From the NCBI GenBank assembly GCA_963682175.1, contig OY821771.1, positions 26,494,201-26,558,200 on the forward strand: DNA of 64,000 nt, given 5' to 3'. The notes under the pieces are model-generated. The model ran no database searches. It saw only the letters and a list, made by a program, of their open reading frames with translations, and was not told the DNA's origin. The stretch comes from Triglochin maritima. Its lineage: Eukaryota; Streptophyta; Magnoliopsida; Alismatales; Juncaginaceae. Shown here piece after piece: positions 5,109-63,017 of this stretch. Within the stretch, counting starts at the first letter, position 1, and each line of letters opens with the position of its first letter. The position numbers and the translations under genes are program-made.

Positions 5109-8100
5109 ATCGGTCGACCGGTTTGTGCAAACGGTAGACCCTTCGTGAAGAGAATTCGGGCTCTGTCTCACATCGGTCGAACAATGCCCTTGGGGGCGGT
5201 CGACCGATCGTGCATAGGAGGCAAGTCTGGAGCGTTTCGGTCGACCGGGGCCCCTTTGGCGGTCGACCGTGTGCACTGTCTTAAGTCGGTTGGGGGCGTA
5301 GACCATCTAAACGGTCGACCGCTCGTTGATCTTCGTCCGACCCGACTTAAGTGAGTATTGTGGTCGGTTCGACCGAATGTGGTTTCGGTCGACCGGACTT
5401 GTGCGCTGAGCGTGGGGAACGTTCTGGAGGAATTCGATCGACCGAGATGTGCTCGGCGTTCGACCGAATTCATGGTGCGTGTAAGACCCGCTCTCCGGTA
5501 CCTTATTAAGTCTTATCCATCCTTACGCCCGAGTTTGTGTTTTCTTGATGAATGATGTTAGTTGTGTGATTTTATGCTTTGTTTTGGAAAAGCTTCCTTT
5601 CGGGGAAAAGTTTCCTTTTTGGGCGAGTCAATGCGACTCGTGGACGGGTTCGACCGTCAGGCAGATTTTCCAATCGATTGACTTAACCGGGTCGATCAAG
5701 TGGAATTCATGTGTGCGGTTTGGCTTGTGCTTTGAAGTAGGCATTTAGGGCTGAGGTGTGAAGGCTGGGTGACGTGGATGCCACATCAGCAAGAGCAAAT
5801 CTCTTGAGATTTGCAAAATATCTAAATTGGTTGCCTAAAGGAAAGTGCTGATTGGCCATCAAAGCAAAATTATCTCTTGCCTTTTTGCTAGTTGCTCTTC
5901 TCATCTTGCACCTTTATAAGCCCACCTTCCAGCCGACTTCCCCAAACCCTTTCTCCACCCACAGCCACCGAAAATCTCCCCCGCAATTCCAGCAACTTGG
6001 AAGAAGAGATCCGGAGGTGTTTCTTGCGTGCGGCTAAGGGGAAATCCTGGTGCATCCGGTGAAGTTCAGCATCTTCCTTTTTCAGGTATGTCTCTAGCCA
6101 TTAGTGTAGCATAAGGCTTGGGGCTGGGAGGAGGCCGTCCAGCATCAATGATCTCGGGTTTGATTGAATAATTCACGTGGCTAGAGTTGCAACTCAAACT
6201 ATGAGGCGGGTGAGGGTCTTGATTATTGCTAACATAGTATGTTGTAGTATTTTGTATGCTGCTGGTCGGATATTAAAATTATGTTGCAACCCTTGTATGA
6301 TTTTAGTTCTTGTTACGATTGAATCTGGGCATGTAGTTGCCATGTTCTTGTGTTTTTCGGTAGCCATATTCAGACCCTATTCTTCTATGATTGTCTGCGG
6401 TTTTGATAACAAATGATCATGCATTTCGTAGTGAAAGGTTTAGATCGTTCCCCATGTTTTGGTAGTAGATTTTAGATGATAAGTGGGGGTGTTGAATGAT
6501 GGTTCGTCCAGCACCAAGGGGCATCTATGGCACACATGGGAGTGGAGGTCAGCCTGGTCGGATTGAATAATATGTTTGGTTGTGTGTTGCACCATAGACG
6601 TCACCGGATTTGTGGTTGTTGCAAATTATAGATGTGTTCTAATGTTGGATCTCTGGGTTATTTTGTGGTCTACCTTGCTGTTAAGATACCCTATGCTTGT
6701 GTCTACTTTATATAGTTGAATTCATGCATTAGTTCCCCATGATCAAGTGGTTGCTGTGATGCTACTCGGATATGCCTAATTAGCTACTGGATTTGCATGG
6801 CCCTTCACCTTAGTTTCTGCCATAGGGACGGATATCTAGACATCTTTGGTTGCTGGACACATGAGTTATTTCCTGATTTTAGTGTTGGTCATAAGCCGCA
6901 AAATTCATACCTTAATAGGTGCTGGAAATCAAAAGACCACATGATTGGATTGTTACCAAAAACATTGCATAATTATTCATTCGGATTATTGCTGGATTTA
7001 AAACATGTGGATCCGGATTTGCTAGCTGGAGAAGGTTGCACTTTCATGCATCATTAGTTGCTAAATATAAGGTTTATTTCCTATCTCGTGGTTGCTAAGG
7101 GGATGGAGGTTCATGCAGCATTAGGAAGTTAGAATCAGGAAGGTTCAAGGCAAGACATTACCAAATGCGTTTTATAACCATACACACACTTGTTTCCTGT
7201 TTCTTCACTTATTCCGAAATTTACTAGCTGATTGGTGTTCAACTTGCATGCTTTATTTTAGTGGCTATATATTATATGGAACGCTTATCACATGCCTTTA
7301 TTTCCGGATTTTTGTGCTTGTCGAATTTAGGAAACAACCATGATTCTTGTTGTTGAATTTGGTGTGGTTTGGCTGGATTAAAATTCTGTTTTGCTTAGAG
7401 CTTGAGGGAGATATTGCATGTTCTCCTTTGAACTCATTCTGAATAATTTAGTTGCACTAGACTATAAAGTAGTTGCATTGCATCTAATCTGATGGAGTAA
7501 TTCTGGGCACGTTCTGTTTTCTGGGCCGACGGGCCACGGGTGGGTCCTCTAGCTTCAGAGGCCACTCGGTTAAGACCCTTGTAGGGGGCCAGGCCTAAGA
7601 TAAGTCCTGGGCATGCGCGCTGCCATTCTGTCTCAGCGTAGGTGTTCCCAAGTTCGCGATGACACCATGTAGGTTTATTTCCACGGATTGGGACGCTTAT
7701 CCGGCGCACCGCTTTGTGCCGAGCGGTGGGTCACTGACGAGTGACCGCCTTTGACCAGCTAGGCTGGTGTTCTGGTTCCTATGGAGGAACGATTCGGGTG
7801 TGCCCGACCGGCACGGCTTGTGTAGTCGTAGCCTTCTGTTGCATTTGATGCTTTCTGTTCTGTTCTGTTTCTGAAGCTTGCCATATTTGCATTCATGCTA
7901 TTTTACTATTGTTCGGCTGAGGCATACTGGGTTTTCTTAATTGAAAACTCACGCATTGTTAAATGCGGTGCTTGCAGGTACTTAGGTTCCACAGGGCAGA
8001 CTGGACGAGTTCCGAAGATTCTGTACACGAGGGACGCGTCGACCATATTCCCCAGTTATCTTTGCTTCCGCTTATGTCATTGTATTTCCTTTGAATCTCA

Positions 8101-8631
8101 ATGTATTGTAATTGGATCATTTATGTATACATGGATAATCATTTGGTTCAGTTTTATACCCTTATCGCCTATCCATGTATGTCTGTTTCATTTTATCGAG
8201 TCGTTGTTGGTCTGTCTTTTGTAACTCCTTCGGTCGTCGCGGAGGTCTCTGATCGCGACACTTGTGTTCCTTTCCCAGTGTGCGTACCCGCGAGATTGGG
8301 GGCGTTACAGTGCGAGTGAGGGATTATTCCCTGGACGGATTCGGTCGACCGAGAGTGCTCGGTGGTTCGACCGAATTCGTTGTGGTGTTGAGGGATTTTT
8401 CCCTGGTGACTTTCGGTCGACCGGGACCCTTTTGTCGGTCGACCGATTAGTCATTTTGTTCGTTGAACCGGGAGTTTACCATCTAAACGGTCGACCGTCC
8501 CTTGACTTGGGTTCGACCGAACGAGTACTGTTGGTGGGAATCGGTCGACCGATGGAGTGCCGGTCGAAGTGGATTGCCCTGTATTTGCTTGATTCGGTCG
8601 ACCGGGACTTTTGGTTCGGTCGACCGTTTGT
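5109..8631. repeat. CGGTCGACCG palindrome array of the outer LTR, in two halves
   Basis: About 13 perfect CGGTCGACCG copies and several one-base variants lie at 5109-5470 and 8338-8631. The two halves are one array split by the nested LTR. Spacing is irregular, about 20-60 bp. Flanking bases often extend the palindrome to TCGGTCGACCGA or ACGGTCGACCGT. Confidence 0.9.
5480..8309 (+). mobile_element. Gypsy-type solo LTR nested inside the outer LTR, TSD GTGCG
   Basis: This 2,830-bp LTR begins TGTAAGACCC and ends GGGCGTTACA. It is flanked by the 5-bp TSD GTGCG at 5475-5479 and 8310-8314. The palindrome-rich LTR sequence on its left continues on its right. It has TATAAG near 5914, a donor-like TTCAG|GTATG at 6086, the stem-loop GGGTTTTC/GAAAACTC at 7929-7950 and an acceptor TTGCAG ending at 7977. 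Unlike the other gypsy-type LTRs it carries almost no CGGTCGACCG copies, only decayed sites near 5648. No internal genes are present, so it is a solo LTR left by recombination. Confidence 0.88.
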
Positions 8632-8739
8632 GTCCTGTTTTGCACTATGGAGGTGTTGTTGTCGTGGTTGTCCATGTGAGGCAAGTCGTAGTGCCGATGT
8701 TCTTCCGGCAAGTGTGCTAGGGTGCACGAGTGTTGCGGT

Positions 8740-9449: not shown

Positions 9450-9452
<3 letters not shown>

Positions 9453-10132: not shown

Positions 10133-10141
10133 AAGTCACAC

Positions 10142-12065: not shown

Positions 12066-12925
12066 TGTAACGTACCCGAAAACAGCGGAAAATTTAAACA
12101 ATAATAAAGACCGTCAACGGTCAACACAGGGTACGTCACGGGAAAACAAACCAACATATATATAAAATATATAAGATACAGACCCACGTGGAAGTCAAAC
12201 TATATAAATGAGTCAACTGTGATTACAACAAAAGTGAATATACATGTAATCACTACCTCAAACAAAAGAAGATATAAAAGAGAACAGGATCTGATCCCGG
12301 GGGCACTCTCCTCGGTCACCACCTGACTCTAATGCTACTCGCTACCTGAAATGAAAACAAACAAACATGCCTGAGTTCCCTGCAGGAACCCCGTATACCA
12401 AGCCTCCTAAAAATATAAAAAGGAATTAAAGACAATGCAATACAATGCACATGATCATCCACCTCGGGCCCACAATAATGCCCTCACCGCCTCCGCGGCA
12501 CTGAACCACTCCTGTCACTAGGGTCAAGTCAGTCCACCGCTGCCTCACAAGGGTCAGTCGACACCACTGCTCCCCAAAAGTGCAGGAAGGAACCCCTGTT
12601 ACACGCCGCCACCCAAGGAGCGAGTCAGCCCGCCGAATACACAACTCGGGTCAGACGACAGCCGCTGCTCCCCCAAGAGCCGCCAAGCGCGCACCCTGCC
12701 GGAACATCCTCGGCCTACCGCTAAACCCTCGCAAACTGCCCAAGGTTTACGGCACACATCCCTCACACCCCGCTCGGTAAGAGAGGCAACATTAGTACAA
12801 TAATACGCCTTCGTCGAAGGTGAAATCCGTAGCTCTCAAAACCGGTAATCAACCGTCGCCTCGGAGCCGGTAGTCGACCTATACTCAACGGGTCGCGTGT
12901 GGATAAATCCACCAACCTGCGGCAG

Positions 12926-13602
12926 ATCGGTCGACCGCTAAAAGCACACCGGTCGGCCGGTCCCCCACACAGTACACGGTACTGTACAAACAAGTCTATC
13001 GGTCGAATCACGCCAACCGAAATACCGACCAATCGGTCGAACAAAAGTCATCTAGCGGTCGACCGTTTGGAAGGTTTAGGCTATACATTTTATATACATA
13101 TATATCTTGTCGGTCGAACCAGGGTCCGTTCAACCGATAAGGAAATCTGCATGAATCCTGCCCACTGGATTCGGTCGACCGAAACTCCTTCGGTCAACCG
13201 GATCAACAAGCACTTCACTACAGGAAAACTGCACTCGGTCGGTCGACCGGATCCAGAGCGGTCGACCGTTTAGATGGTCAACGCTCGTAACCGACCTTGC
13301 GCAGTTCGGTCGACCGAGACACACACTCGGTCGGCCGAAGGTCTGTCTAACCTATCTACTGGGTTCGGTCGACCGAAACAACACCGGTCGACCGGCTAAT
13401 GTAACCCTTTATTTCCCGCGAAATTTGGCATAAACGGTCGACCGTCACACAGACATCGTTCGACCGTTTTCGGGCAGTAAGTTAATATTTATAAATATCG
13501 GTCGACCGAACCTCACACGGTCGACCGTACAATACATAATCGCCAGTGTACAGGCATCATTTAGACGACGTTCGGTCGACCGAGACATACAACGGTCGAC
13601 CG
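12926..13602. repeat. CGGTCGACCG palindrome array, left LTR
   Basis: About 13 perfect copies and about 8 near-copies (such as TCGGTCAACCGG and CGGTCGAAC) lie in about 680 bp. Perfect copies begin near 12928, 13039, 13172, 13238, 13259 and 13306, and continue to 13592. Confidence 0.9.
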
Positions 13603-13755
13603 AACCAGTCGTCTTCAACCTCCATCCAGTAGGGTTTTCACCGGAGAAACGGCACCAACGCCGTCCTCTACACTCCCACACCTCTTGGGGAGTTAATATG
13701 AAGACTTGGCATACCTTTTGGTCGAGTGAAGAAGCCTCCCAAGCTTTGGCAACCT

Positions 13756-13801
13756 CTTCTCTTCTTCTTCTCTTCTTCTTCTTCTTCTTCTTCTTCTTCT
13801 C
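13756..13801. repeat. CTT-rich microsatellite, left LTR
   Basis: A CTT run is longer here than in the right LTR (about 18537-18561). This length difference accounts for most of the size difference between the two LTRs. Confidence 0.9.
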
Positions 13802-14042
13802 TCTAAACTCTTCTCTCACTCTCTGGTTAGCTTCAGAAATGGAGAAAACGATTCAATTAACCCTCTCCCTCTTATTTATAGTAAAATCCAAATTTATCTT
13901 CAATCCACCTCTTAAACTTCAAATCAAAACAAGCCACCTCATGCTCCCAACCTTATCTCCTCACCTCTTCATTAGCATGCATAATTAGGGTAAGTTAGGT
14001 TTAGGTTTAGTTAATTAAGATGTTTTAGATTAGGTTCTTACG

Positions 14043-14060
14043 ATCTACCCTCCTTAAAAG
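14043..14060 (-). other. Polypurine tract of the minus-strand gypsy element
   Basis: The minus strand reads AAGGAGGGTAGAT directly before the LTR, the position expected for the plus-strand primer of reverse transcription. Confidence 0.7.
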
Positions 14061-14091
14061 AATTTCGTCCGCGAAATTCAAAACAACAGAC

Positions 14092-14469
14092 TTACCGAAA
14101 AAACACTGGATACTGCTTCCTGACATCCTCCTCGATCTCCCAGGTAGCCTCTCTGACACTGTGATGCTGCCACCTGACCTTCACCATCGGAATCGCTCTC
14201 CTCCTGAGCTGATGTACCATCTGATCCACAATCTCAACTGGTCTCTCATCTAATGACAAATCCTGCCGGATCTCTGGTACTGCTATCTCTATCACATGAG
14301 CTGGATCGGCCACGTACTTCCTCAGCATAGAAACATGGAAGACGTTGTGAAGTCCTACGAACTGTGGTGGTAGTGCAATCCTATATGCCACCTCACCGAC
14401 CCGATCCAATATCTCAAAAGGTCCGACATACCTCGGACTCAGCTTCCCCTTCTTCCTGAATCTCATCAC
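14092..14469 (-). pseudogene. Integrase C-terminal remnant of the gypsy element
   Basis: A 125-codon frame carries the end of a chromovirus-type integrase: KGKLSPRYVGPFEILDRVG, then LHNVFHVSMLRKY, then a chromodomain-like tail with VKVRWQHHS and ATWEIEEDV. Upstream sequence to about 14565 matches the EVGDHVFLKISPSRG region in another frame. The HHCC zinc finger and the DDE catalytic core are absent, removed with RNase H by the internal deletion. In intact relatives this tail helps direct insertion into chromatin. Confidence 0.85.
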
Positions 14470-14519
14470 CCCTCTGGAAGGTGAGATCTTCAGGAAGACA
14501 TGATCTCCTACCTCAAAAG

Positions 14520-16721
14520 TCAGCTCACGCCTCCGCGTATCAGCATAACTCTTCTGCCTGCTCTGTGCTGCTCCACATCTGGTGAATAGATCAAAATGTC
14601 ATCCACGAAGACAATCACAAATATATCAATATACTGCCTGAATGTCCGGTGCATCAGATCCATGAACGCTGCCGGAGCATTCGTCAATCCAAATGGCATC
14701 ACCAAGAACTCATAGTGTCCATATCTCGTCCTGAAGGCTGTCTTCTGGATGTCCTCATCTCGGATCCTCAACTGGTGATATCCTGAACGCAGGTCAATCT
14801 TCGAGAAAACCTTCACTGACTGCAGCTGGTCAAAGAGGTCCTCGATCCTAGGTAAGGGATACCTATTCTTCACCGTCACCTGGTTCAGCATCCTGTAGTC
14901 TATGCACATCCTCAAGGATCCGTCCTTCTTCTTCACAAACAAAACTGGTGCACCCCAAGGCGAGACACTCGGCCTGATAAATCCAGAGTCCATCAACTCC
15001 TGCAACTGCTTCTTCAACTCTGTCAACTCAGCAGGTGTCATCCGGTATGGAGCCTTCGACTGTGGTGTAGTGCCAGCTACAAACTCAATGCCGAACTCCA
15101 ACTCCCGGTGTGGTGGTAAACCTGGAATTTCCGCTGGAAAAACATCAGCGAACTCCTGCACCACCTCAATGTCCTCTATCCTCTGAGACTCTGCCTCCGC
15201 AACCACAAGTGTCGCTAAAAATGCTGTACAACCCTGCTGCAACAGCCTCTGAGCTCTCACGGCAGATACAATAATGCAACCCCCTCTGTTTCTGATCCCT
15301 CTGATCAGAATATCAGGCAAACCCTTCCTCGGAATCAAAATCTTCTTCTCACGGCACAAGACTCGAACATCATATTGGGACAGCCAATCCATCCCAAGTA
15401 TGACATCAAAGTCCTCCATCGGTAGCAAGACCAGGTCTGCCGGAAACTCCTGATCTCCCGAAACAACCGTGGTGCCGGGGACAAATCTCCCCACAGTGCC
15501 CACCAGACCCAAGAGTGTGCTGACCTCCAACGTGGCAGTCAACATCGCAAGGGTACAGCCCAACACTCCCGCAAATCGCTCTGAGATGAACGAGTGTGTC
15601 GCGCCACAATCAAAGAGCACCCTAGCTACTGAACCTGCGACAAGAAGCGTACCTTCCACGACAGCACCTCCATCCCTAGCCTCCTCTGCCTGGATGGTGA
15701 AAACTCTGCCGGTGCGCTGTCCCTGCGGTGGTCTAAAAGGTGGTCTGCCTCCGCCTCCACCTCTGCCGGGTGCTGGTAACCCCGGTGGTCTGCTCGGTCC
15801 AGCTCCTCGGCTCGGACAGCTCCTAATAAAGTGGCCCAGCTGGCCACAACCATGACATGCTCCTGGGGTGAAACACGGCCCAGAGTGAAACCTCCCACAA
15901 CTACCACAAGGCTCAGGTCGTGGTACTGCAACTCCTGCTCCCTCGAACCGGGGCCTCTTGCCCGGATTCCCTCCAGTCTGACCTCCCGGCCGCCCAGAGA
16001 ACCTACCCGATGGCCTCCTCTCATCCTGGTAGTTCTCTCTGTAGTCACGATCGAGAACAGTAGCACTCTTCACTGCATCGGCTAACGTGCTCGGCATATG
16101 TGTCAGCACCTTCGTCCTCAACTGCTTCCGGAGCCCTCGGACGAACTTCCCCGCTCTCTGCTCCTGTGTGATATACATCTCGGGACAGTAACGCTCTAGG
16201 GCGTTGAACTTCCCGATGTAGCCTGCCAGGGTCATGTCTCCCTGCTGAAGACTCAGAAACTCCTCCCTCTTCGCATCCTGGACATGCTGCGGAAAATACT
16301 GCTCGTTGAACTCGGCAACGAACTTCTCCCAGGCTATATCATCTTGATCCGCAAACACCACTGCAGATGTGGACCTCCACCAGTTGGACGCAGCACCGCC
16401 CAAAACATAAGTAGCCAAGCCCACTCTCGCCTCTGGAGGACAACCAATAGCACTGAAGATCTTCTGCATCGTGAAGATCCACTCCTCCGCAGCCTCTGCG
16501 TCATACTGCCCCAGAAAGGTAGGCGGATGCTGGCGCATAAACCGGTCATGCATAGCGTCAGTCTCCGTCTGCCCAGTCTGTGCTGTCTGCTGCTGTAGCA
16601 TCTCTGTCAGACGTCCGACCGTATCGAACAATGTCTGACGCTCATCCTCCCACGCCTCATCCCTCGCAGTCTCACTCTCACCGCGAGTATGGGCAATAGC
16701 CTTCCCCCGTCTAGGAGGCAT
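14520..16721 (-). CDS. Gag-protease-reverse transcriptase polyprotein (truncated) of the gypsy element
   Basis: The start is taken at the ATG on plus position 16721 ([14 protein letters not shown]), about 120 bp from the primer site; an ATG 15 codons upstream is less likely. The frame is open for about 733 codons. In order it has a gag domain ([19 protein letters not shown] and NWWRSTS), a zinc knuckle [14 protein letters not shown] (about residues 289-302), a protease with catalytic Asp in [10 protein letters not shown] (Asp at about 371, with LGMDWL downstream), and a reverse transcriptase with [21 protein letters not shown] and FVDD (about 705-708). It ends shortly after YSPDVEQH, where the deletion joins integrase sequence out of frame. 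Domain order matches Ty3/gypsy, chromovirus (possibly Tekay) lineage. The truncated protein would lack RNase H and integrase. Confidence 0.9.
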
Positions 16722-16829
16722 CTGCCAAAAAAAACAAGACAATATCAATATAATCTGTGCATGCATGATCCTCTAGACCTAACTCCTAACTCAAAGGTGG
16801 TTTCTTTGGACAAGTACGCCGAGATCAAC

Positions 16830-16841
16830 GCTCTGATACCA
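16830..16841 (-). other. Primer-binding site for initiator tRNA-Met
   Basis: The minus strand reads TGGTATCAGAGC, the standard plant complement of the initiator tRNA-Met 3' end. It lies 3 bp from the 5' LTR (right copy). Confidence 0.95.
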
Positions 16842-16844
16842 AAT

Positions 16845-18804
16845 TGTAACGTACCCGAAAACAGCGGAAAATTTAAACAATAATAAAGACCGTCAACGGT
16901 CAACACCGGGCACGTCACGGGAAAACAAACCAACATATATATATAATATATAAGATACAGACCCACGTGGAAGTCAAACTATATAAATGAGTCAACTGTG
17001 ATTACAACAAAAGTGAATATACATGTAATCACTACCTCAAACAAAAGAAGATATAAAAGAGAACAGGATCTGATCCCGGGGGCACTCTCCTCGGTCACCA
17101 CCTGACTCTAATGCTACTCACTACCTGAAATGAAAACAAACAAACATGTCTGAGTTCCCTGCAGGAACCCCGTATACCAAGCCTCCTAAAAATATAAAAA
17201 GGAATTAAAGACAATGCAATACAATGCACATGATCATCCACCTCGGGCCCACAATAATGCCCTCACCGCCTCCGCGGCACTGAACCACTCCTGTCACTAG
17301 GGTCAAGTCAGTCCACTGCTGCCTCACAAGGGTCAGTCGACACCACTGCTCCCCAAAAGTGCAGGAAGGAACCCCCGGTACACGCCGCCACCCAAGGAGC
17401 GAGTCAGCCCGCCGAATACACAACTCGGGTCAGACGACAGCCGCTGCTCCCCCAAGAGCCGCCAAGCGCGCACCCTGCCGGAACATCCTCGGCCTACCGC
17501 TAAACCCTCGCAAACTGCCCAAGGTTTACGGCACACATCCCTCACACCCCGCTCGGTAAGAGAGGCAACAGTAGTACAATAATACGCCTTCGTCGAAGGT
17601 GAAATCCGTAGCTCTCAAAGCCAGTAATCAACCGTCGCCTCGGAGCCGGTAGTCGACCTATACTCAACGGATCGCGTGTGGATAAATCCACCAACCTGCG
17701 GCAGATCGGTCGACCGCTAAAAGCACACCGGTCGGCCAGTCCCCCACACAGTATACGGTACTGTACAAACAAGTCTATCGGTCGAATCACACCAACCGAA
17801 ATACCGACCAATCGTTCGAACAAAAGTCATCTAGCGGTCGACCGTTTGGAAGGTCTACACTATACATTTTATATACATATATATCTTGTCGGTCGAACCA
17901 GGGTCCGTTCAACCGATAAGGAAGTCTGCATGAATCCTGCCCACTGGATTCGGTCGACCGAAACTCCTTCGGTCAACCGGATCAACAAGCACTTCACTAC
18001 AGGAAAACTGCACTCGGTCGGTCGACCGGATCCAAAGCGGTCGACCGTTTAGATGGACAACGCTCATAACCGACCTTGCGCAGTTCGATCGACCGAGACA
18101 CACACTCGGTCGGCCGAAGGTCTGTCTAACCTATCTACTGGGTTCGGTCGACCGAAACAACACCGGTCGACCGGCTAATGTAACCCTTTATTTCCCACGA
18201 AATTTGGCATAAACGGCCGACCGTCACACAGACATCATTCGACCGTTTTCGGGCAGTAAGTTAATATTTATAAATATCGGTCGATCGAACCTCACACGGT
18301 CGACCGTACAATACATAATCGCCACTGTACAGGCATCATTTAAACGACGTTCGGTCGACCGAGACATACAACGGTCGACCGAACCAGTCGTCTTCAACCT
18401 CCGTCCAGTAGGGTTTTCACCGGAGAAACGGCACCAACACCGTCCTCTACACTCCCACACCTCTTGGGGAGTTAATATGAAGACTTGGCATACCTTTTGG
18501 TCGAGTGAAGAAGCCTCCCAAGCTTTGGCAACCTCTTCTCTTCTTCTTCTTCTTCTTCTTCTCTCTAAACTCTTCTCTCACTCTCTGGTTAGCTTCAGAA
18601 ATGGAGAAAACGATTTAATTAACCCTCTCCCTCTTATTTATAGTAAAATCCAAATTTATCTTCAATCCACCTCTTAAACTTCAAATCAAAACAAGTCACC
18701 TCATGCTCCCAACCTTATCTCCTCACCTCTTCATTAGCATGCATAATTAGGGTAAGTTAGGTTTAGGTTTAGTTAATTAAGATGTTTTAGATTAGGTTCT
18801 TACA
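16845..18804 (-). repeat. 5' LTR (right copy) of the minus-strand gypsy element
   Basis: It is nearly identical to 12066-14042, with the intact terminal TTCTTACA next to the TSD. Donor (18493) and acceptor (17125) positions match the left copy. About 10 perfect palindromes remain at 17706-18379, against 13 in the left copy. Confidence 0.9.
17706..18379. repeat. CGGTCGACCG palindrome array, right LTR
   Basis: About 10 perfect copies remain. Three sites intact in the left LTR are altered here by single transitions: CGATCGACCG near 18087, CGGCCGACCG near 18214 and CGGTCGATCG near 18279. Confidence 0.9.
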
Positions 18805-23497: not shown

Positions 23498-24500
23498 GTG
23501 GTGGAAGGCACTCTTTATGCTTCTGGTTCGGTTGCTCGTGTGTTGTTTGATTGTGGTGCCACTCACTCATTCATTTCGGAGAAGTTTGCTGGCGAGTTGG
23601 GTCGGACTCCTGTGCTGCTGACTGATTGTTTGGAGGTCAGCACGCCCAATGGAAGACTTCGACGTCATACTGGGGATGGACTGGCTGTCGTTGGTAGTTC
23701 CTGATCCTGAGACGAGGAGGTTGGAGGACATAGAGGTAGTGCAGGAGTTCCAAGATGTGTTTCCAGCAGATATTCCCGCATTACCGCCGCACCGAGAGAT
23801 CGAGTTTGGCATCGATTTGGTAGCGGGTACGACACCTTAGTCAAAGGCTCCGTACCGGATGTCATCTGCTGAGTTGACAGAGCTGAAGAAGCAGTTGCAT
23901 GAGTTGATGGACTTTGTGTTTTTTTGGCCTAGCGTTTCTCCTTGGGGAGAACCTGTGCTGTTTGTGAAGAAGAAGGATGGGTCGTTGTGGATGTGCATCG
24001 ACTATAGGATGCTGAATAAGGTTATCATTAGGAATTGGTACCATTTTCCTACGATCGAGGACCTATTTGATCAATTGTAGTCGACGAAGGTCTTCTCACA
24101 TATTGATCTGCGATCAGGATACCATCAGTTGAGGATCAGGGAGGCGGACGTCCAGAAGACAGCTTTTCGGACGCGGTACGGGCACTACAAGTTCTTGGTG
24201 ATGTCGTTTGGATTGACGAATGCACCTGCAACATTCATGGATCTGATGAACAAAACATTCCGTCCGTACCTCGACAGATTTGTCATTGTCTTCGTGGATG
24301 ACATTTTGGTGTACTCCGCAGACAGAGAGCAGCATGGTGAGCACCTGAGGATTGTGCTTGGCATCTTGAGAGATCAGTAACTCTATGCCAAGTACATGAA
24401 GTGCGAGTTTTGGTTGGATCAGGTAGCATTTCTGGAGCATATTGTGTCAGCAGATGGGGATTTCGGTAGATCCGGCGAAGGTTGAGGTTGCGACTTAGTG
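23498..24500 (+). pseudogene. Protease and reverse-transcriptase relic of the degraded gypsy element
   Basis: The protease motif [10 protein letters not shown] is present near 23550, but the part before LGMDWL (near 23665) is shortened and frame-shifted. After MDWLS about 60 residues present in the related element are missing. Stops follow at 23838 (TAG) and 24078 (TAG). RT blocks are [27 protein letters not shown] and [10 protein letters not shown] (near 24295), then a TAA near 24378 and a further frame change near 24460. The active-site VDD triad is intact, but no continuous enzyme can be made. Confidence 0.85.
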
Positions 24501-24537
24501 GAGGGCCCCGACGAGCGTAACCGAGATCAGGAGCTTC

Positions 24538-25908
24538 GTGGGACTGGTGGGGTATTACAGACGATTCATTCAAGATTTCTCCAGACTTGCTTCGCCGCTG
24601 ACAGCGTTGACACAGAAGAGTGTCAAGTTCGTTTGGTCCCAGAAGTGCGAGGACAACTTTCAGGAGCTGAAGAGGCGACCGACGACAGCACTGATTCTGA
24701 TGCTACCGAGTGGCAGTGGAGGCTATGTGATTTACAGTGACGCGTCAGCGATTGGCTTAGGCAGTGTACTGATACAACACAGGAAGGTGGTCATGTATGC
24801 TTTGAGGCAGCTGAAGGCGCACAAGAAAAACTACCCTACCCATGATTTGGAGTTAGCAGCGGTGGTTCATGCATTGAAGACCTGGCGACATTATCTTTAT
24901 GGAGAGCAGTTCGAGGTCTTCACGGATCATCAAAGCCTGAAGTATTTGTTTTCGCAGAAGGAGCTGAATATGAGGCAGCGCATACGACTCAAGTTCATTA
25001 AGGACTACAACTTCACCATCTCCTATCATCCGAGGAAGGTGAATTCTGTTGCGGTTGCGTTGAGCAGGAATGTGGAGGTGTCAGTTGCGAGTCTATGCAT
25101 TCAGGAGTGGAGGCTACTCGAGAAGTTGTCAGAGTGGAGGCCGTTCATGGAGCGCTCAGAGGGAGCAGTGATTGTTGGGCTTCTGGTGGAGCCGCAGACT
25201 GTCTCGTGTGTTGTTCAGGCTCAGCATGATGATGAGGAGTTAGCTGGTCTGCTATGGTTAGCTTCCAGAGATGGATTAGACTTCAGTGTGGGGGTTGATG
25301 GTGGTTTGAGGTTCAAGAGTCGGATCTGGGTGCCGAAGGCCGATAGGCTGAGAGATGACATCATGGAGGAGGCACACAGAGCTAGATACACCATTCACCC
25401 TGGGAGCACGAAGATATATAAGGACCTGCAGCTGAACTTCTGGTGGAAGGGCATGAAGAAGGACATTGCAGAGTTTGTAGACCGATGCTTAGTCTGTCAG
25501 CAAGTTAAGATTGAGCATCAGCGACCTGCAGGACCGATGCAGTGTATTGAGCTACCAGAGTGGAAGTGGGAGCACGTAAAGATGGATTTCGTCATTGGTC
25601 TGCCGAAGACGAGGAGATTCCACAACGCGATTTCGGTGATAGTCAATCGACTGACCAAGTCGGTGTACTTCTTAGCTATTAATACCACGTTGCCTTTGGA
25701 GGGTCTAGCTAGGTTGTACGTGGATGAGATAGTTAGGCTGCATGGAGTACCAGTGAGCATCATCTCTGATCGAGATCCCAGATTCACTTACAGATTTTGG
25801 GGGAGTCTGCAGCAGGCATTGGGTACGCGTCTGAGGTTAGTACAACGTTCCACCCGCAGACAGATGTTCAGTCAGAGAGGACGATTCAGACCGTGGAGGA
25901 TATGTTGA
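24538..25908 (+). pseudogene. RNase H and integrase N-terminal relic of the degraded gypsy element
   Basis: This is the longest open part, 456 codons. It starts at the RT connection (GYYRRFIQDFS), then RNase H with YSDAS, ELAAVVHALKTWRHYLYG and FTDHQSLKYLF. It continues into integrase: a HHCC-like zinc finger ending CLVCQQVK, WKWEHVKMDFVIGLP with the first catalytic Asp, and IISDRDPRFT with the second. It then goes out of frame near 25830. The residues I can check match active relatives, apart from NSVAVALSRN, where most have DALSRK. Confidence 0.85.
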
Positions 25909-26600
25909 GGGCATGCACCAAGGATTGGGCAGGACACTGGGACGAGCACTTGCCACTGATAGAGTTCGCCTACAACAACAGCTACCATTCTAGTATTGGG
26001 ATGGCACCGTATGAGGCGTTGTACGGGAGGCCTTGCAGATCACCGGTATGCTGGAGTGACGTGGGCGAGAGGCAGTTAGTGGGGCGAAAGCTTGTGGAGA
26101 TGTATGCAGAGAAGGTTGATGTGATCAAGAGGAGACTGGCCACAACACAGAGCAGGCAGAAGAGTTATGTTGATCGACGCAGACGTGTGTTGAGATTCGA
26201 GGTAGGTGACCATGTGTTTCTGCAAATTTTCCCATTCCGAGGAGAGATGAGGTTTGGGAAGAAGGGGAAGCTTAGTCCAAGGTACGTTGGACCGTTTGAG
26301 ATCCTCGACCGAGTTGGAGAGGTTGCCTACCAGATTGCGTTGCCACCGCAGTTGTCCGGTCTTTACAACGTCTTCTACGTGTCGATGCTGAGGAAGTACG
26401 TTGCTGATCAAGCTCATGTGATTGAGATAGCAGTCCCAGAGACTCAGCAGTACTTGTCTCTTGAGGAGAGACCAGTTGAGATAGTTGATCGCATGGATCA
26501 TCAGCTCATGAGGAGGACCATTCCGATGGTGAAGGTCAGGTGGCAGCATCATAGCGAGGGCGAGGCCACTTGGGAGATCGAGGAGGAAGTCATGAGATAG
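25797..26600 (+). pseudogene. Integrase C-terminal and chromodomain-like relic of the degraded gypsy element
   Basis: This overlaps the previous frame and continues the integrase: STTFHPQTDVQSERTIQTVEDMLRAC with the catalytic Glu, PLIEFAYNNSYHSSIGMAPYEALYGR, then KGKLSPRYVGPFEILDRVG and the chromodomain-like tail VKVRWQHHS/ATWEIEEEV. A TAG ends the frame at 26598-26600. It matches the remnant at 14092-14469 closely over the tail. Confidence 0.85.
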
Positions 26601-26667: not shown

Positions 26668-28757
26668 TGTAATGTCCCTAAACGCAATTAGGGGTTAAGT
26701 GGTGATTAGGTGGTGGTTTGACTTGGCTTGGAGAGAGGAGGCATGAGAGGTATGGGTTGAGGTGAGGGTGGTAAGGTGAGGTGATGGGGCGTGGGTAGGG
26801 GATGGTGTAGGGGATGGGTGTGGATTGGGTTTGGGTTTTAAGGAGAAAACCAACCCATTTCTTCTTCTTCTTCCTTATTTTCTTCCTTCCACCACATCAC
26901 TCACCTTTTCCGGCGGCATTGGAGGACGAAGCTCGAGTGGTCGGTGACAAGGGCGGACGATCGATCCCGGCATGAGGCATTCAGAGGTTGGCGCGCGAGG
27001 AGGTCCCAGAGACGACGTTGCACGAGCACGGCTCCAGCGAGTTTCGTCGTCTGGGAAGGTATGCCGGGTTATTTGTGTGTTTTTATTGCTCACCCACGTA
27101 TGGGTGATGTGTTGGTCGGTTGCGGGAAGTCGAAGACCTCACCGGCGACGTTCTTGGCGTAAATCCTTGGCCAACGCAAGGTTGCAGACGACCAACAGTC
27201 GACTGGTTCCTTCGGGTGGTCGACCGATGTAATGTTTTTTGCCCGACTTTAACCAACACCGATCGGACGATGCCTTGTGGCGCTCGACTGGTAGTGCATT
27301 GTGTTGGTGGGTCGGGGTTGCCTGTTGGATTTCGGTCTACCAGTTCTATGTTTTCGTTCGACCGGAACCTAAGTGTACTTGATTATTATGCATGATTGTT
27401 CGACCGATTTTTGGTATGTGTTCGGCCGATATATCACTTAGAACTGCTAGGATGCCCTGGTAGTTTTCGGTCGACCGGGACCCCTGAGTAAGTCGACCGT
27501 TAGTATTGATTGATGTTGACCAGACTCCGGATTTTGACCACGTATCGGTCGACCATTTGTGCACAGAACTGAATTCCCAGTCCTTTTAGGATGCCAACTT
27601 TGTCCACGGAAACCCGTGTCCTCGCCTAGTGCATGAGTCGAGAGGTGACGGTGGGCGTGTTACGTGTGCTTGCCCAGGGACCGCCGTGTAGAAGAGTGTG
27701 GGTGTTTGGGACATGTCACCTCCGTGTATGGATTATGACTTGATGTGATGGATAGATGGACTCATTGTCTTGTAGCAGGCCTGAGGGATCGCGAATCCCA
27801 ATGTATGATGTCGTGCGGGCACGCAACTGTCGTTGGGTGAAGTGACTACCGGCCTGGATGGCTACGGAGGTCGCTGCTCTGCTTTTATAGCGGCGAAGTT
27901 GGTGTTTGCGGCTCGTGGAGCCTGATGACCCTGCGGACTTCGGTACGAACCCGTCCGATGTTGTGCCGGACGTATGTCGGACCACCAATGTTGTGTCGGT
28001 GATGCCGTCGATGTTGTTCCGGCGATGATGGGTCGATGTTGTTCCGGCCATGATGTTTGTTGGGCCGATGTTGTTCCGGCTATGTTTTCCTCAGTTGGGC
28101 ACCTACTGAGATGATGATTGATGGACCGACCGAGCGACGGTTCCGTTGGGGTGGTTTGGTCCATGAAGTTACAGATCTGTTTATTATGGCGCAGACCTGG
28201 CGGATGCCCCTTGCCGAACCCCATGTTTAGTGTAGCCACGTGTGGGGAGCGTCACGTCTTGTTCCGCTAGACCGTATGTGCCTACGGTAGGTCTCCTTGG
28301 GAGACCCGATAATGATTGTCGGACTGATGTCCCGTGTTACCCTTCGGGGGAACTATTTTCCTTACTGCTGATGACATGACATGCTACTAGTATGATAGAT
28401 TTATTTGTACTACTGCATGCATATAGGTGAGCTTGGCATACGGGGTTTCCTTCTGGAAACTCAAGCATTGTTGTTGCATGTTTTATTTCAGGAACACAGT
28501 AGGTCCAGTTGGGTGGTGACAGCGGCCGCGTGCATTTTGGGATCAGATCCTCTCGTTCGGACCACTGAGGTCGACATGATTACTTTTATCTCCTTTTGTT
28601 ATATCTGATGTAATCGTGTAGTTTTTTGACAAACTCTGATGTAATATGGTGCACCACTTGGATGTTTTTATGAGAAGCAACAGTCTCGTCTTTTGATTAT
28701 TGGTCTCTGATTTCTTGATGATAAATTTTAAATTTTCCGTTGTTTCGGGATGTTACA
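26668..28757 (+). repeat. 3' LTR of the degraded gypsy element
   Basis: The LTR runs from TGTAATGTCCC to GGGATGTTACA, 2,090 bp. It has TTTTAAGGAG near 26837 as a TATA-like site, a donor GGAAG|GTATGCC at 27059, a decayed palindrome array (27190-27555), a second motif GATGTTGTTCCGGC repeated about five times (27957-28080), the stem-loop GGGTTTCC/GGAAACTC (28443-28462) and an acceptor TTATTTCAG ending at 28491. The order of parts is the same as in the other gypsy-type LTRs here. Confidence 0.85.
27190..27555. repeat. Decayed CGGTCGACCG array in the 3' LTR
   Basis: One perfect copy (near 27467) and about ten one- or two-base variants (GGTCGACCGAT, GTTCGACCGG, GTCGACCGTT, CGGTCGACCA) show an array in decay, consistent with the age of the element. 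Confidence 0.8.
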
Positions 28758-30459: not shown

Positions 30460-30897
30460 TGTAACATCCCCGAACAGCGGAAAATTTAAACTTTTTAAAT
30501 CATAAGAAACACGTGGACAAACCATCAAGAGTGGGGACATTACTGAAAGAAATACATAAATAAGTCTGGTGCACCAGAATACAATACGAGTTTGTCAAAA
30601 GAGTGATTACATTACAACACGAAACACAAGGTACATGTAATCACGACAACCTAAAAGTAGGCAGACGACAGGATCCAGTCCCAAAGTGCAATCTCCCTCG
30701 ATCACCACCCGCCGGAACCTAACGCGGTCCTGAAAAAGATGCAACAACAATGCCTGAGTTTCCATAAGGAAACCCCGTATGACAAGCTCACCTATATGCC
30801 CTAACATACTAGTATAGCATGGCATGGAATACAAAGCAGTAAAACAACAACGCCACCAAGGGCCAAACCGGACATCCGTCCCGCGATCGTTCCCGTT

Positions 30898-31480
30898 GCC
30901 ACACAGGCCCCGCGGTCTACAATCGCCACCGCTGCCACACAGGCCTCACGGTCCGCAACATCGCCGTCGCCACACAGGCCCCACGGTCCACAAACACCGG
31001 TACCACACAGGCCACACGGTCCAACCTCACCGCCGCCACACAGGCCGCACGGTCCAAACATCGGGTCTCCGTAGAGACCTACCGTAGGCACATACGGTCT
31101 AACGGACAATACGCAACGCATCCCCACACGCGACTACACAAGCCAAGGGATCGGTGAGGACGCATTCGCACTTCCGCGCAAGGTAGAAATCAGATCTGAA
31201 TACATCGTGGTCCACCACCACCACACCAACGGAGCCGTCGCTCAGGTCGGTCCATCAACCGGCGCCACACAGACCGCACGGGATATCACTCGATAGGTGC
31301 CCAATCGAGCTACCTGCCGGAACACATCATCGGCAGTCCATCGCCGCAACCACACAGGCTACGCGCGATCCTCCCTGCCGCCACACAGACCGCACAGGGG
31401 CCCTCCCGCCGCCACACAGGCCGCACGACACGTGCAATAACTGCCATCAAGGCCAGTCGAACATATCCGCCACACATGGC
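30898..31480. repeat. Second short-motif array in the solo LTR (GCCACACAGGCC unit)
   Basis: The motif GCCACACAGGCC, often followed by GCACGGTCC, occurs about ten times: near 30898, 30934, 30969, 31002, 31034, 31263, 31350, 31380, 31410 and 31469. Intervening sequence is variable. It sits in the same place as the unrelated nine-copy array of the LTR at 4424-9603. Confidence 0.85.
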
Positions 31481-31945
31481 CAGACAATCGACAGATCCGA
31501 ACCGAAGTCCGCAGGGTCAACGAGCTCCACGTGCAACACCAACTCCGGCTCCAACTGAGCAGGGTCGCGACCTCCGTCACCGTCAATAGGCTGGTACCTC
31601 TCTGGACCTCCGTCGCCAATCCTGGCCGGTAGTCTCTGTGCCTCCGTAGCCATCGGCCGGTAGTCACTGCACCTGTCGGCAGTTGCGTGTTGCTGAAGCA
31701 ATGGGATCCGTAATCCCTCAGGCCGCTACTCTAACGCGAGTCAAACGATCCACCAGATATAGTCACGATCCATACACGGAGGTGACGCGTTCCGGACACC
31801 CACACTCTTCCACACGGCGGTCCCTGGGCAGGCACGCATAACGCGCCCACCGTCACCTCCCGGCTCACGCACAAGGCGAGGACACGGGTTTCCGTGGACA
31901 GAGTTGGCATCCTAAGTGGAACCAGGAATCCTGTCCTGTGCAAAA

Positions 31946-58509: not shown

Positions 58510-59553
58510 ATATTGAAATTTCTACTGGTTCATTTGCATCAACTGAGATCTAGTCCTGTCCTTCAGTCTATATCAAGAATTTCACTCGTATGATCTCAAC
58601 TCCAGATCAAGATTGTGCCTTCTTCACTACCATCTAGCAAACACACTCGCCTAGCTTGAAGTCGAAGGTAGATGTAAAGCTAATTACAACTCTTGTATCG
58701 AATGCATGACTTTCAAATACCTTCATGGGAAGCACTTGTATAAGATGGTAATAAAATTAACAAATGGTTGAGAGTGAACGAGAGTATGAATGAGGGTTTT
58801 GAATGTGAGATAGTTGAACGAAGTGTGAGCTGTAGGATTTAAATGGCCCTAAGTGAGGTCTCGAGGGAAGGTGAATAAACTAATGCAATGTTAATGGCAA
58901 ATCAAAATGCAATAAGGAAGAGAATAACAAAACAAAAAGAACACAACAATATAAAGAGGTTCGACACCCCAACCAAGTCATAATCGTTTTAGAAGCCCCG
59001 CTCAAACCGTGAGCCCCACTTGCGTCTGTACTAACTGATTCAAGTTCCGAACAGATCAAGCCTTGTATAGCTAGCACAAGCAAATGTCACTCTCCAATGC
59101 TTGAATATTCTCTCACAACCTAGGAGATTGCCCCAACCTTAAGCTACAACCTTCTTTGAAAAATTTGGGACTCTAACTGAGCAATTGAGAGGATTTGGCG
59201 ATGGAGACTTGAAATGGTGGAAATTGATTTGAAGAACAATGTAGGAAGTGATTTTTTGATCTCAAGAATGTGTGAATGATTTAGATTGCAAGAAGGATGC
59301 TAGTTAGGGTCTAAAACACTAATATTTATTGGCTTAGAGGAGATATACCATTGGGTAAAAGACAAAAGAGATGGTGAAGCAACCGACAAATGAAAGCAAA
59401 AGAGATGTGACAGTTGGGTGCCAGACGGTCGACCGTTACATGACTTTCGTCTAACCGTTTGCTTAAAACTTAAGTGAACAATTGAATGAAGTTGTATATT
59501 GTCAATCTTGCAAAGTTTAGGCTTAGAGTAATTTTGTCTTTTGACTAGGCAGA
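58510..59553 (-). mobile_element. Two copia-type LTR fragments, minus orientation
   Basis: A first piece (about 58530-58860) and a second (about 58890-59553) each contain the GAT(C/T)-rich LTR block with AGGTTCGACACC or ATCTAGTCCTGTC, CAGATCAAG and CTCACAACC on the reverse strand. The second has one perfect CGGTCGACCG at about 59427 and a variant 30 bp later. They look like separate, partly deleted insertions. Confidence 0.55.
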
Positions 59554-59616: not shown

Positions 59617-61248
59617 TGTTGGCTTTTTGGCTAATAATCGTTAATCCATTTTGATGATTAATCAACATATCAATAAACACATTTACATCTATCATATCAT
59701 AGCATGCATATGTACACATATATTGTATTTACTAACATTTCAGGAGAGAAGTGTGGCTCAAGACAAGAAATCAAGTTGAAGAGTAGATAAGTTTTATATT
59801 TCTTGTTCTTAGGATTAATATATAACTTGAGCACTTGAATCCTGATGTATTGCATTGCATGATGCTTAGGAAACCCATAGAAGTCTCACGCTTAATTCCA
59901 CATCAAACCGACATCATTAGGAGGTCGACAAAACTTAGAAATTTCACTTTGAACAAGAATTCTGCTTCAATCGGTCGACCGACAGACCATCTCATTCGAC
60001 CGGAATTAACAAACTCCTAATTACTTTCCCATACGGTCCACCGATAGCACTTCTGGTTTGACCGATTCTTAGAGGTCATCTCACAGTCCCAATCGGTCGA
60101 CCGAATCTCATACCTTATTCGACCGATTTTATATGTAAACTGAGAATTCCTAGTTCTACCGTTTCACCCTTTGCACACCAGTTATATTGTGACACGTGTC
60201 CCATAACCGGTCGACTGAAACTTCACTTTGGTTCGATCGTTTGACACATCGCATTTCTTTTGAATATGACCGTTATACTTTGTTGTATTATACAACGGTC
60301 ATATACACATACTTCTACCAACCCAACTCGTATATTTGGCCACCAGTCGAACAATAACAGGACGACGGTCGACTAGATCAGACACAATTAGAATACCCAA
60401 ACTTCATGTTATTTTTGGTCGAACTGGATCCTTGTTTGGTTCAACCGTTACATCAATTGTTTAATATTATTCTGGCCAATTCTCTCTTAATGGTCGACCG
60501 ATCCTATATATCGTTCGACCATCCACTTAAGTTATAGTCTGGGTGGATCGGCCGGTATGCTCTTCATAATGACAATTTTCTTATTTACAAGAAACCAGAC
60601 GACTATGTAGCCCGATCCGGTCGATTGTTTGTGTCTTGATTTGAGTTCTAAACTTCCTTGTTTTATGCATTTCTGTCAAATCCCTATCACTTCAATGCCA
60701 ACAACTAAATTATGTATGGAGCTTATAAATAGAGCTTAGAACACAATTCTCAACTCACCAATCCTTTCTCTAAATCTCATACTCTCATACTTCTCTCAAT
60801 TGCCCCAAACTTCTCGTTGTGCTCAATCCTTCCATTTGAATCACTCATTGTATTCATCAATCCTTCAAGTGCTCAAGATTAGAAGTTGTTATTGAAATTT
60901 CTAGCAAAGTGTTGTAATAGCTTCCAGAGTGAAGTTCTTCTCTGATTGTGAGAAGGTGGTCCAAGCTTGGCGAGGGTGTTCGAAAAGCTTGAAGTGTAAA
61001 TGCTTGATCTCGGCCTAGAACAAAGATCAAATTAGTGGAGGACACGAAGTTGCTCAAAGAGGAGCAATTCGTAAGAGGGACTAGGATCCAGTGGTTGGAT
61101 CCAAACCTCTATACATCTCTGTCGTGGTTTGCTTCTCCCTTCTTTTTAAATTTAATTTTTGTCGCTTCATATTGCTAAATTTTTTAAAGAACGTAATTAG
61201 TCTATTCACCCCCCTTTAGACTAATCCTAGGGCTCATTAGATCCAACA
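59617..61248 (+). mobile_element. Copia-type solo LTR, TSD ATAAT
   Basis: This 1,632-bp LTR reads TGTTGGCTTTTTGGC ... AGATCCAACA and is flanked by ATAAT at 59612-59616 and 61249-61253. Flanking sequence is continuous if it is removed, and no primer site follows, so it is a solo LTR although a copia gag relic lies further right. It has CTTATAAATAGAG near 60724 as a TATA box and a decayed palindrome array at 59970-60630. Confidence 0.82.
59970..60630. repeat. CGGTCGACCG array (mostly decayed) in the copia-type solo LTR
   Basis: Two perfect copies (near 59971 and 60094) and about 15 variants (TTCGACCGG, CGGTCCACCG, CGGTCGACTG, TGGTCGACCG, GTTCGACCA, CGGTCGATTG) lie in 660 bp. The copia-type LTR is unrelated in sequence to the gypsy LTRs outside these motifs. 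Confidence 0.85.
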
Positions 61249-61437
61249 ATAATGACATGGATACACTACCACAACACTTACCAACTTATGTTTTGTGGCA
61301 ATATTTGGGTGTTGTGGGTCAACGGACTCATGGGTGATGAACATGGACTCAAGCTCGGTGAGGGTGACTCAATATAGATCCTACATTTGTTTTCAAAGCC
61401 TCGTAGATTACATCTAAACAAATTAACATTTGTAGCA

Positions 61438-62240
61438 ATGGCCCAACAACGCGAGGGATTCCACAGTGGTAGACCTCCCTTGTTTGATGAAATGAACTAT
61501 GCATATTGGAAGAAATGCATGATTACTTTCATTCAATCATATGATGTTAAGTTGTATGTGTTTCTTCAAATTCCTTACATTCAAAAAAATTACTTGAACG
61601 ATGATGAACTAGTCATGGTTCAAATGAATGCTAAATTCATGAACATTCTAATGTGGTTTAACCGAAGAAAAATAGAATCAATGCATGTGATTCAGCATTT
61701 GAGGCATGACATATGTTAGAGAGTCACTTTGAAGGTCGATCATCCATTAATGAAACTAGGATAGATTCATTTATGCATAAATATGAAATGTTTGCTATGA
61801 AGCCTAATGAAATAATAAGCGAGATGCACACTCGCTTCACCCATATTTGTAACTCTTTGAAGAACCTTGATAAGGTTTTGGTTGAAAGTGACAGGGTACG
61901 GAATGGGAGAAAAAGACTACGACGATTGAAGAAGCCAAAGACCTCTCAAAGTTAAAGATGAAGGATCTCATAGGAAGCATCATGGCTTATGAGATTAAAA
62001 TGGAAGAAAGAAGAGAGAAGGAGAAGGAACGGGAAGGGTTAAGAAGGAAAGAAAAGACAATTGCTCTTAAAGCAACCTCGGATCCAGAAGTTATTGAAGA
62101 CGAGGACACCGATGAAGATGTCGCATTTCTAACCCGCAACTTCAATAAGTTCCTCTCTAAGGGAAAATTCACAAGAGAAAAGGAAAATTGTCTTGGATGT
62201 TCACGTTCTATGATTGCGACAAAATTGGCCACATGACTGC
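61438..62240 (+). pseudogene. Copia (SIRE-like) gag relic
   Basis: It starts MAQQREGFHSGRPPLFDEMN, then AYWKKCMITFIQSYD, matching the start of UBN2-type gag. After a stop near 61718 it continues in other frames (MHKYEMFAMKPNEIISEMHT and later KDLIGSIMAYEIKM). Near 62200-62235 one frame gives a zinc-knuckle-like CDKIGHM. The relic breaks off near 62240. Confidence 0.75.
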
Positions 62241-62339
62241 AACAAACCAGTGACGCGTTGGAGGCTCTCTTCCGTGTGCCACCTGGGGACACCAATTCGG
62301 CCCGCGGCCACCAATCCTGCCACCGTCAAATTCCTTAAA

Positions 62340-63017
62340 CTCACCAAAAGAGGCGATTTCGGTGACCGTTTGAATTGTATCGGTCGACCGTTGGCGCACA
62401 AAATTGCTGAACTTCAGTTTCTAATTTGTGTCTTACACACAACTTAACCATTCTTCCCCAATGACTTAAATGTTTACGAGCTTATAAGTAAAGGTTTACA
62501 TACCATATTTATATAACTCTCAAGCTTTGAAATCACTCACACTTTAGGGAAAATCTCTCCCTCCCAAGAATCCCATTCTACACACTCAAAGGCTAAACTC
62601 CACACTTTTGATCCTAAATCCTATCCATCGAAGTGTGCTTAAGTTGGAGTGTATTATTACAAATTTCCTTTTACAAACAAAGGTTGTAAAGGTTTTGGCG
62701 AAAGCCCAAAGCATCCATCTCAGGTTGTGAGAGGAGGATCCGAGCTCGGAGAGGATTGTTCGCAAGTTCGTGGTGTAAAAGCTTGGTCTCGGCCCGGAAC
62801 AAGATCAGATAGTGAAGTCGTGAGCGGAGCTCGTGGAATCGAGTCGAGCTTGTAAGAGGGGAAGTAAGATCTGGTTGGTGGATCTGAACCTCTCTAAAAT
62901 CGCCAAGTCCTATTTGTGGTTTGCTTGTTCTATTCCCTACTTGTTTTTATTGTTTATTTCCACTGCATATTTAAGTAGAGATTAAGGAATTGATTAGATA
63001 TAATTAGACTCTATCGA
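62340..63017 (+). mobile_element. Copia-type LTR fragment, 3' part
   Basis: It contains one perfect CGGTCGACCG near 62380, TTATATAACTC near 62510 as a TATA-like site, and the shared copia block GGAGAGGATTGTTCG, GGTCTCGGCCCGGAAC, GAACCTCTCTAAA and GTGGTTTGC. It ends near GATCCTTACA at 63017, followed by a gag relic as in a normal 5' LTR position. The left end is not visible. Confidence 0.65.

Follow-up and report, generated by a model that had tools for sequence, protein, structure and literature searches.

We describe here arrays of a palindrome of 10 base pairs (bp), CGGTCGACCG, in the long terminal repeats (LTRs) of gypsy-type and copia-type retrotransposons within a 64,000-nucleotide stretch of the Triglochin maritima genome (contig OY821771.1, positions 26,494,201 to 26,558,200), referred to below as the window. 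The palindrome is present in 56 perfect copies in the window, against an expected count of 0.0097 (first-order Markov model, dinucleotide content), together with 28 one-mismatch copies; 54 of the 56 perfect copies lie inside LTRs delimited by self-comparison, terminal words and duplications. A sequence-only reading of the same DNA had counted about 55 perfect copies, far above chance and almost exclusively inside LTRs, and both statements hold. The two remaining perfect copies, neither with a strand assigned, lie just 5' of a copia LTR (59426..59435) and in the interior of the same element (62381..62390); the earlier reading had put these copies, at about 59427 and 62380, inside copia LTRs. 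Observed/expected CpG is 1.27-1.65 in the arrays and 0.76 for the window, and an Rfam search of the window gave no match at gathering scores.

Array-bearing elements in the window and the genome

Chromovirus-type (Ty3/gypsy) LTRs at four loci, designated E, A, B and C, carry arrays. LTR E (+ strand) extends over approximately 4423-9603, its start being uncertain, and its array falls into a 5' part with 6 perfect copies (5109..5470) and a 3' part with 7 (8338..8631); these are the halves of one LTR cut by a nested TG..CA insertion (5480..8309, +) that is flanked by the 5-bp duplication GTGCG and contains no perfect motif. The 3' half of LTR E also contains a 48-bp tandem repeat of the GGTTGGTTGAAATTAGACCTGGAGCCC type (8735-9158). 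Element A is a deleted gypsy copy on the minus strand, with 97% identity between its 3' LTR (12066..14041; array 12926-13602, 13 perfect copies) and its 5' LTR (16845..18804; array 17706-18381, 10 perfect copies); the interior (14042..16844) retains gag, protease, a piece of reverse transcriptase (RT) and a C-terminal piece of integrase with a weak chromodomain match, and the primer-binding site TGGTATCAGAGC is at 16841. Element B (+ strand) is represented by RNase H, integrase and SH3 pieces (24499..26600) and a 3' LTR (26668..28757) with an eroded array of 1 perfect copy and 11 variants with up to 3 mismatches (27190-27555). LTR C (30460..32925, minus strand; array 31946-32428, 14 perfect copies) is probably a solo LTR, with GTAAA on both sides; it contains a tandem duplication with a 47-bp unit and, in its 3' half, a 33-bp tandem repeat of the CCACACAGGC type (30898-31060).

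By self-comparison, the gypsy LTRs E, A, B and C form a related set with which the copia LTRs share no comparable similarity. The proposal that the array-bearing LTRs are otherwise unrelated thus stands for gypsy against copia but fails among the gypsy elements. Elements A and B and a further stretch, L042, have clear gypsy pol domains. A Chromo match was obtained in A (E 0.001) and L042 (E 0.00017), both under the Pfam cut-off, and the Pfam domain search found none in element B. Stretch L050 was placed with the chromovirus-type elements by its similarity to A, and we presume, without a tree, that A, B, L042 and L050 belong to the Tekay/Del group.

Two copia LTRs of Sirevirus type carry arrays in the window. 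D1 (37130..38500, minus strand) is an LTR fragment with 1 perfect copy and 14 variants (array 37676-38205), in which the TATA word TATAAATA occurs at 37584, 95 bp beyond the array. D2 (59617..61385, + strand) is a 5' LTR with 2 perfect copies and 15 variants (array 59970-60630; up to 3 mismatches in both LTRs), TATAAATA at 60724, a poly-C word at 61207 and a small insertion near the LTR end, and is followed by broken copia gag pieces (61378..62236, +). An interpretation of D2 as a solo LTR flanked by the duplication ATAAT was dropped after comparison with stretch L047, in which the LTR continues through the small insertion to gag. The window copia arrays contain just 3 perfect copies among many with one to three mismatches, and their consensus and pairing are the same as those of the gypsy arrays.

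Genome-wide counts were made in the window's own assembly (1.063 Gb, 167 contigs), the sole genome examined. It contains 359,535 perfect copies of CGGTCGACCG, compared with 90 of the reversed word and 4,679 of a palindrome with the halves rearranged; the approximately 360,000 sites of CGGTCGACCG make up 0.34% of the sequence. In an unselected sample of 18 ten-kb stretches picked by position only, 61 copies were found, spread over 13 stretches (339 per Mb), of which 59 lay in clusters of at least 4 sites (up to 2 mismatches). LTR-element evidence was present in 7 of the 11 stretches with clusters, the remaining 4 being without assignment. A high frequency of the motif in DNA outside LTRs would have told against the sequence-only reading; as far as sampled, it is not seen.

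Dyad spacing, helical phase and constraint

The spacing of the sites had been described as irregular; they are in fact paired. Using one LTR of element A, we counted 33 pairs at 19-22 bp in the window gypsy arrays, where 8.7 are expected, and 14 in the window copia arrays, where 3.1 are expected, with 0 of 5000 permutations reaching the observed value in either case. When 22 arrays are taken together, pairs of 18-23 bp account for 232 of their 274 sites (up to 2 mismatches), and 60 of the 116 pairs are spaced by exactly 22 bp. The same preference is evident genome-wide: 83,769 perfect dyads have spacers of 9-12 bp (approximately 20,900 per spacing value), compared with 16,659 over spacers of 13-30 bp (approximately 930 per value, or about 22-fold fewer). 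The dyad is more than two sites, in that it has an A/T outer flank of its own: A or T occupies position -2 in 209 of 232 cases on the outer side, against 159 towards the spacer, and G occupies position -1 in 5 and 31 of the 232, respectively. Mismatches in inner versus outer half-sites (31 versus 14 in copia pairs, 25 versus 19 in gypsy pairs) were not used as evidence. As a separate observation, nine IMG/VR contigs (L001-L009; G+C 0.53-0.69) contain a perfect dyad of CGGTCGACCG at 19-22 bp, with 2-3 perfect copies each in the stretches examined; by a rough estimate these are perhaps due to chance, or perhaps a phage operator.

In the unselected stretches, a scan of periods from 6 to 16 bp over all distances between sites up to 130 bp, dyads included, peaked at 10.5 bp (R=0.60, n=178), with the caveat that the distances are not independent of one another. 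Twelve step signatures gave R 0.487 for all steps (n=115; 99.9th percentile of jittered sets 0.357) and a best period of 10.3 for adjacent steps of at least 28 bp (R 0.42, n=61; 99.9th percentile 0.413). The adjacent steps of at least 28 bp in Sirevirus-type copia LTRs have a best period of 10.4 (R=0.67, n=39), a value reached by 0 of 1000 jittered sets. When all distances of 28-130 bp are considered, the best period is 10.5 with R 0.68 in Sirevirus-type, 0.79 in Tork-type and 0.30 in chromovirus-type arrays, and 10.6 with R 0.44 in L045/L053. Helical phasing is thus clear in the Sirevirus-type copia LTRs and weak in the chromovirus-type arrays. Genome-wide, start-to-start distances number 28,483 at 50-53 bp, 10,862 at 45-48 bp, a class that includes sums such as 22+25, and 6,589 at 55-58 bp, where a step of 57 is common to most of the matches listed.

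When LTR copies from within one lineage are compared, conservation is higher in the motif columns than in the spacers in 18 of 19 cases, for example 97% versus 79% for both L024-L021 and L031-L037 and 89% versus 68% for D1-L056; these comparisons share sequences and are not independent, and because sites were picked by their similarity to the motif, there is some bias in its favour. Only the near-identical pair L019/L020 departs from this pattern; the alignment of L019 reversed against L020 was unusable and lies outside the 19. Spacers are also less conserved than the aligned remainder of the LTR in 13 of the 19. Between the two LTRs of element A, CpG columns differ in 12 of 266 cases and other columns in 22 of 1693, and the motif CpGs are mostly kept despite this higher rate. 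There is no covariation between pair members (371 observed versus 370.3 expected) or within sites, and hence no support for a conserved RNA stem.

LTR lineages and promoter context

The motif is not new to copia elements. In Bousios et al. 2010 (PMC2829016), Table 3 assigns CGGTCGACCG, in 12 copies, to a Vitis Sirevirus as its repeated motif and gives CGG-CCG palindromes of similar form for most of the other Sireviruses listed there, so the copia part of our result was already known. According to the accessible text of that paper, Sirevirus motifs lie upstream of the TATA box in CpG islands and are termed Sirevirus-specific; no common binding factor could be named for them, and their role was left open. 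In agreement with this description, the palindrome studied here has the CGG-CCG core and is identical to the Vitis entry, and 9-17 sites (up to 2 mismatches) lie upstream of the TATA box in D1, D2, L034, L035, L047 and L056, the expectation for a repeated motif being at least 8. In two respects it departs from it: chromovirus-type LTRs carry the array on the downstream side of the likely TATA box, and the arrays are not confined to Sireviruses, as they also occur in gypsy A, B, L042 and L050 and in copia L019, L037, L045 and L053. The arrays are thus a known Sirevirus feature in a wider form, with the same 10-mer additionally in chromovirus-type and further copia LTRs, a defined dyad grammar and a very high copy number. 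Neither dyad spacing nor helical phase is described in the accessible text of that paper, and the matches listed from the open-licence PMC literature, with subscription papers and bioRxiv outside the scope, contained no report of the motif in Ty3/gypsy LTRs or of a dyad or phase.

For other Sirevirus hallmarks the picture is mixed. The poly-C signal CACCCCCC occurs in D2 (61207) and L047 (5132), and was not found in L034, whose LTR end is covered, nor in L035, L056 or the D1 fragment. The Sirevirus junction of LTR and primer-binding site, CA/ATTGG/TATCAGAGC, is seen in L034 with one change; L047 has CA/TTTTC/TATCAGAGT, and in D2 the junction is eroded. The AGGGGGAG polypurine tracts, of which Sireviruses have several ahead of the 3' LTR, were not seen in L034, L035, L047 or L056, stretches that cover little or nothing of the 3' parts.

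Several lineages carry arrays. Gypsy elements with coding evidence have arrays within or beside them in A, B, L042 and L050, and the Sirevirus-type copia element L047 does so together with its LTR relatives L034, L035 and L056. The copia elements L045 and L053 are 82-87% alike in their gag/RT pieces and 28-41% alike to L047, and in L019 and L037 the array-bearing copia LTR is followed by a primer site and then a different gag (Retrotran_gag_2 match), from which we would class these two as Tnt1/Tork-like, an assignment read from gag and not from a tree. Both LTRs carry an array in L050 and L045, and in L053 the array adjoins a 3' LTR part that recurs at the 5' side. Four further stretches with arrays (L043, L048, L051 and L057) have no lineage assignment; the edge of the L045 array matches L048 over 21 bp. 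With the motif sites masked, relatives within one lineage align strongly, whereas the best gypsy-copia matches are 13 bp long (E 0.06-0.08); the arrays are therefore not one transferred segment. Such a segment would have spoken against the earlier reading.

In copia, the last site lies 95-97 bp upstream of TATAAATA in the six Sirevirus-type LTRs D1, D2, L034, L035, L047 and L056 (the D1-like stretches of L041 and L054 being left out), and the distance from array to TATA is 53 bp in the Tork-type L031 and L037, 76 bp in L020 and 179-180 bp in another copia type (L045, L010 and L053); L019 yielded no TATA word 3' of its array. In the chromovirus-type LTRs the likely TATA box, 161 bp into LTR A and also present in L042, is approximately 270-300 bp upstream of the array, and LTRs B and C have no perfect TATA word. 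A conserved splice-like GGTATGCC block lies between TATA and array in these LTRs, and TTTCAGG follows the array near the LTR end (approximately 13710 and 12313 on the minus strand; approximately 27055 and 28490 on the plus strand). Because the array is bracketed by these two blocks, it may lie in a leader intron inside the chromovirus-type LTR.

Proposed operator function and rival explanations

From what the sequence itself provides, namely the motif, the dyad, the phasing, the constraint and the presence in several lineages, we infer a protein, its host origin, its cooperative binding and its activating effect. The arrays are probably helically phased operator arrays of LTR promoters for a single protein that binds double-stranded DNA, most plausibly a host transcription factor. 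The unit would be the dyad W-CGGTCGACCG-N9..12-CGGTCGACCG-W, with its palindromes about two helical turns apart, and the recurrence of dyads at near whole-turn steps, clearest in copia, would place the sites on one face of the DNA. One nuclear protein with CGG/CCG half-site specificity would bind as a dimer of dimers, occupy the array cooperatively and activate the LTR promoter. A protein bound along one face of double-stranded DNA would account for the pairing, the near whole-turn steps, the outer-flank preference and the selection on the motif; a host protein would explain a motif common to unrelated lineages better than an element-encoded protein would; and an array beside a TATA box fits an activator. 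As part of this explanation, unrelated LTR lineages of the genome would, in our judgement probably, have converged on the same operator, which selection has kept while the spacers drifted. The shared regulator or selective force suggested by the sequence-only reading is thus well supported by the constraint, the dyad grammar, the phasing and the lack of gypsy-copia spacer homology; its account of irregular spacing was mistaken, and it had missed the prior Sirevirus report.

Several observations weigh against this proposal. The dyad and flank statistics include, among their 22 arrays, six that had been retrieved with a perfect-dyad pattern, although 154 of 193 sites remain paired without them. 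Relative to the TATA box, the array is upstream in copia LTRs and downstream in gypsy LTRs. For adjacent steps of at least 28 bp, phasing does not reach significance in the chromovirus-type arrays alone (best 10.3, R=0.34, p=0.41) or in L045/L053 (n=8), and in the Tork-type arrays the best period is 9.2 (R 0.86, with 0.82 at 10.4), a periodicity reached by 0 of 1000 jittered sets and resting on only 16 steps. An out-of-phase 57-bp step is fixed in one chromovirus-type group. Finally, no array was found 2.6-5.6 kb upstream of RT in the copia loci L058 and L059, which have long open frames; L059 has no primer-site word, so its LTR was possibly missed.

An alternative that we consider unlikely is a role in RNA, in which neighbouring copies form 10-bp stems with loops of 9-12 nucleotides in the LTR transcript and so serve small-RNA silencing or packaging, a role that has been suggested for the palindromes of maize Sireviruses. 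Maize Sirevirus palindrome clusters are reported as small-RNA hotspots (PMC10760457, PMC5311732), and the accessible part of the former ties such palindromes to small RNAs while describing Ty3 elements as generally without an obvious structure peak. Here, 110-nucleotide windows folding below -40 kcal/mol account for 12-80% of the chromovirus-type arrays and 1.6% of the rest of the window, calculated for the plus strand although the transcripts of A, C and D1 would be minus-strand; the figure is 0% in both window copia arrays, however, pair members lack compensatory change, and a stem requires neither 10.5-bp phasing of dyads 30-130 bp apart nor an A/T outer flank. Equally improbable in our view is that an anti-silencing protein encoded by an element acts on the arrays, by analogy with VANC proteins on VANDAL elements, which likewise have dense short-motif arrays in non-coding parts of the element and fast-changing spacers. 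VANC21 is reported to depend on motif density; its motif, in the part of that work available (PMC5735166), is the non-palindromic YAGTATTAY, present in a single orientation, rare outside one family, and bound by a protein of a different type of element, whereas the motif here is palindromic, paired and common to unrelated lineages.

We also think it distinctly improbable that a host silencing or chromatin factor recognises the arrays, or that they serve nucleosome rotation, with the motif a passenger of a CpG-rich promoter region. The CpG excess of the arrays is compatible with this, a 10.5-bp period suits nucleosomes as well, and the excess of CpG-column differences between the LTRs of element A is as expected for methylated DNA; but selection within the element would not be expected to keep a site whose sole ligand is a silencer, and motif CpGs are better conserved than spacer CpGs in most comparisons, though not in all. 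The CpG islands of Del chromoviruses (Cruz et al. 2014, PMC4029996) resemble the arrays in being a CpG-rich block of variable length in the 5' part of the LTR; no short repeated motif is described in the accessible part of that paper, which reports the cluster holding all eudicot Del elements as mainly without CpG islands. Least likely of all, and very doubtful, is spread of the arrays between LTR lineages by recombination or template switching, with otherwise neutral tandem duplication. Tandem duplication is visible in LTR C, but gypsy-copia matches of 13 bp at best after masking, and spacers that diverge while motifs stay, are contrary to it. LOB-domain proteins, considered as a possible binder, are not claimed, a literature search having given nothing useful.

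The dyad grammar, the helical phase and the unrelated lineages all suggest that a protein binds the DNA, and a precise bait for it would be a pair of palindromes with a spacer of 9-12 bp and A/T outside. A parallel in the literature is with the heat-responsive COPIA elements of Brassicaceae (ONSEN and others; PMC5059998), in which clustered sites for one host factor, HSFA2, were gained independently in several LTR families; as far as that paper's accessible text goes, these are nGAAn clusters of few sites, whereas here a paired palindrome occurs at hundreds of thousands of sites in two superfamilies. We would suggest, tentatively and with rather less confidence than the operator proposal itself, that much of the LTR-retrotransposon load in both superfamilies has converged on one operator grammar and one host protein, which would be a common switch and at the same time a titrated factor, possibly in an arms race. 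If true, one factor serving unrelated retrotransposons could account for joint bursts of different families and would provide a handle on host-element conflict over a single regulator.

Several features lie outside these subjects. A frame at 10130-10597 (+) matches the plant transposase domain PF04827 (E 8.7e-30) and holds no perfect motif. Direct repeats at 46202-47318 and 50583-51832, about 88-93% alike, 4.4-4.5 kb apart and without the motif, may be a pair of LTRs belonging to another element. The assembly lists, alongside its chromosomes, a contig (C2) of 152,656 bases, the size of a plastid genome. At 405-974 (+) the window contains a probable host exon, for which 1 of 103 protein matches was named RRP6-like protein 3.

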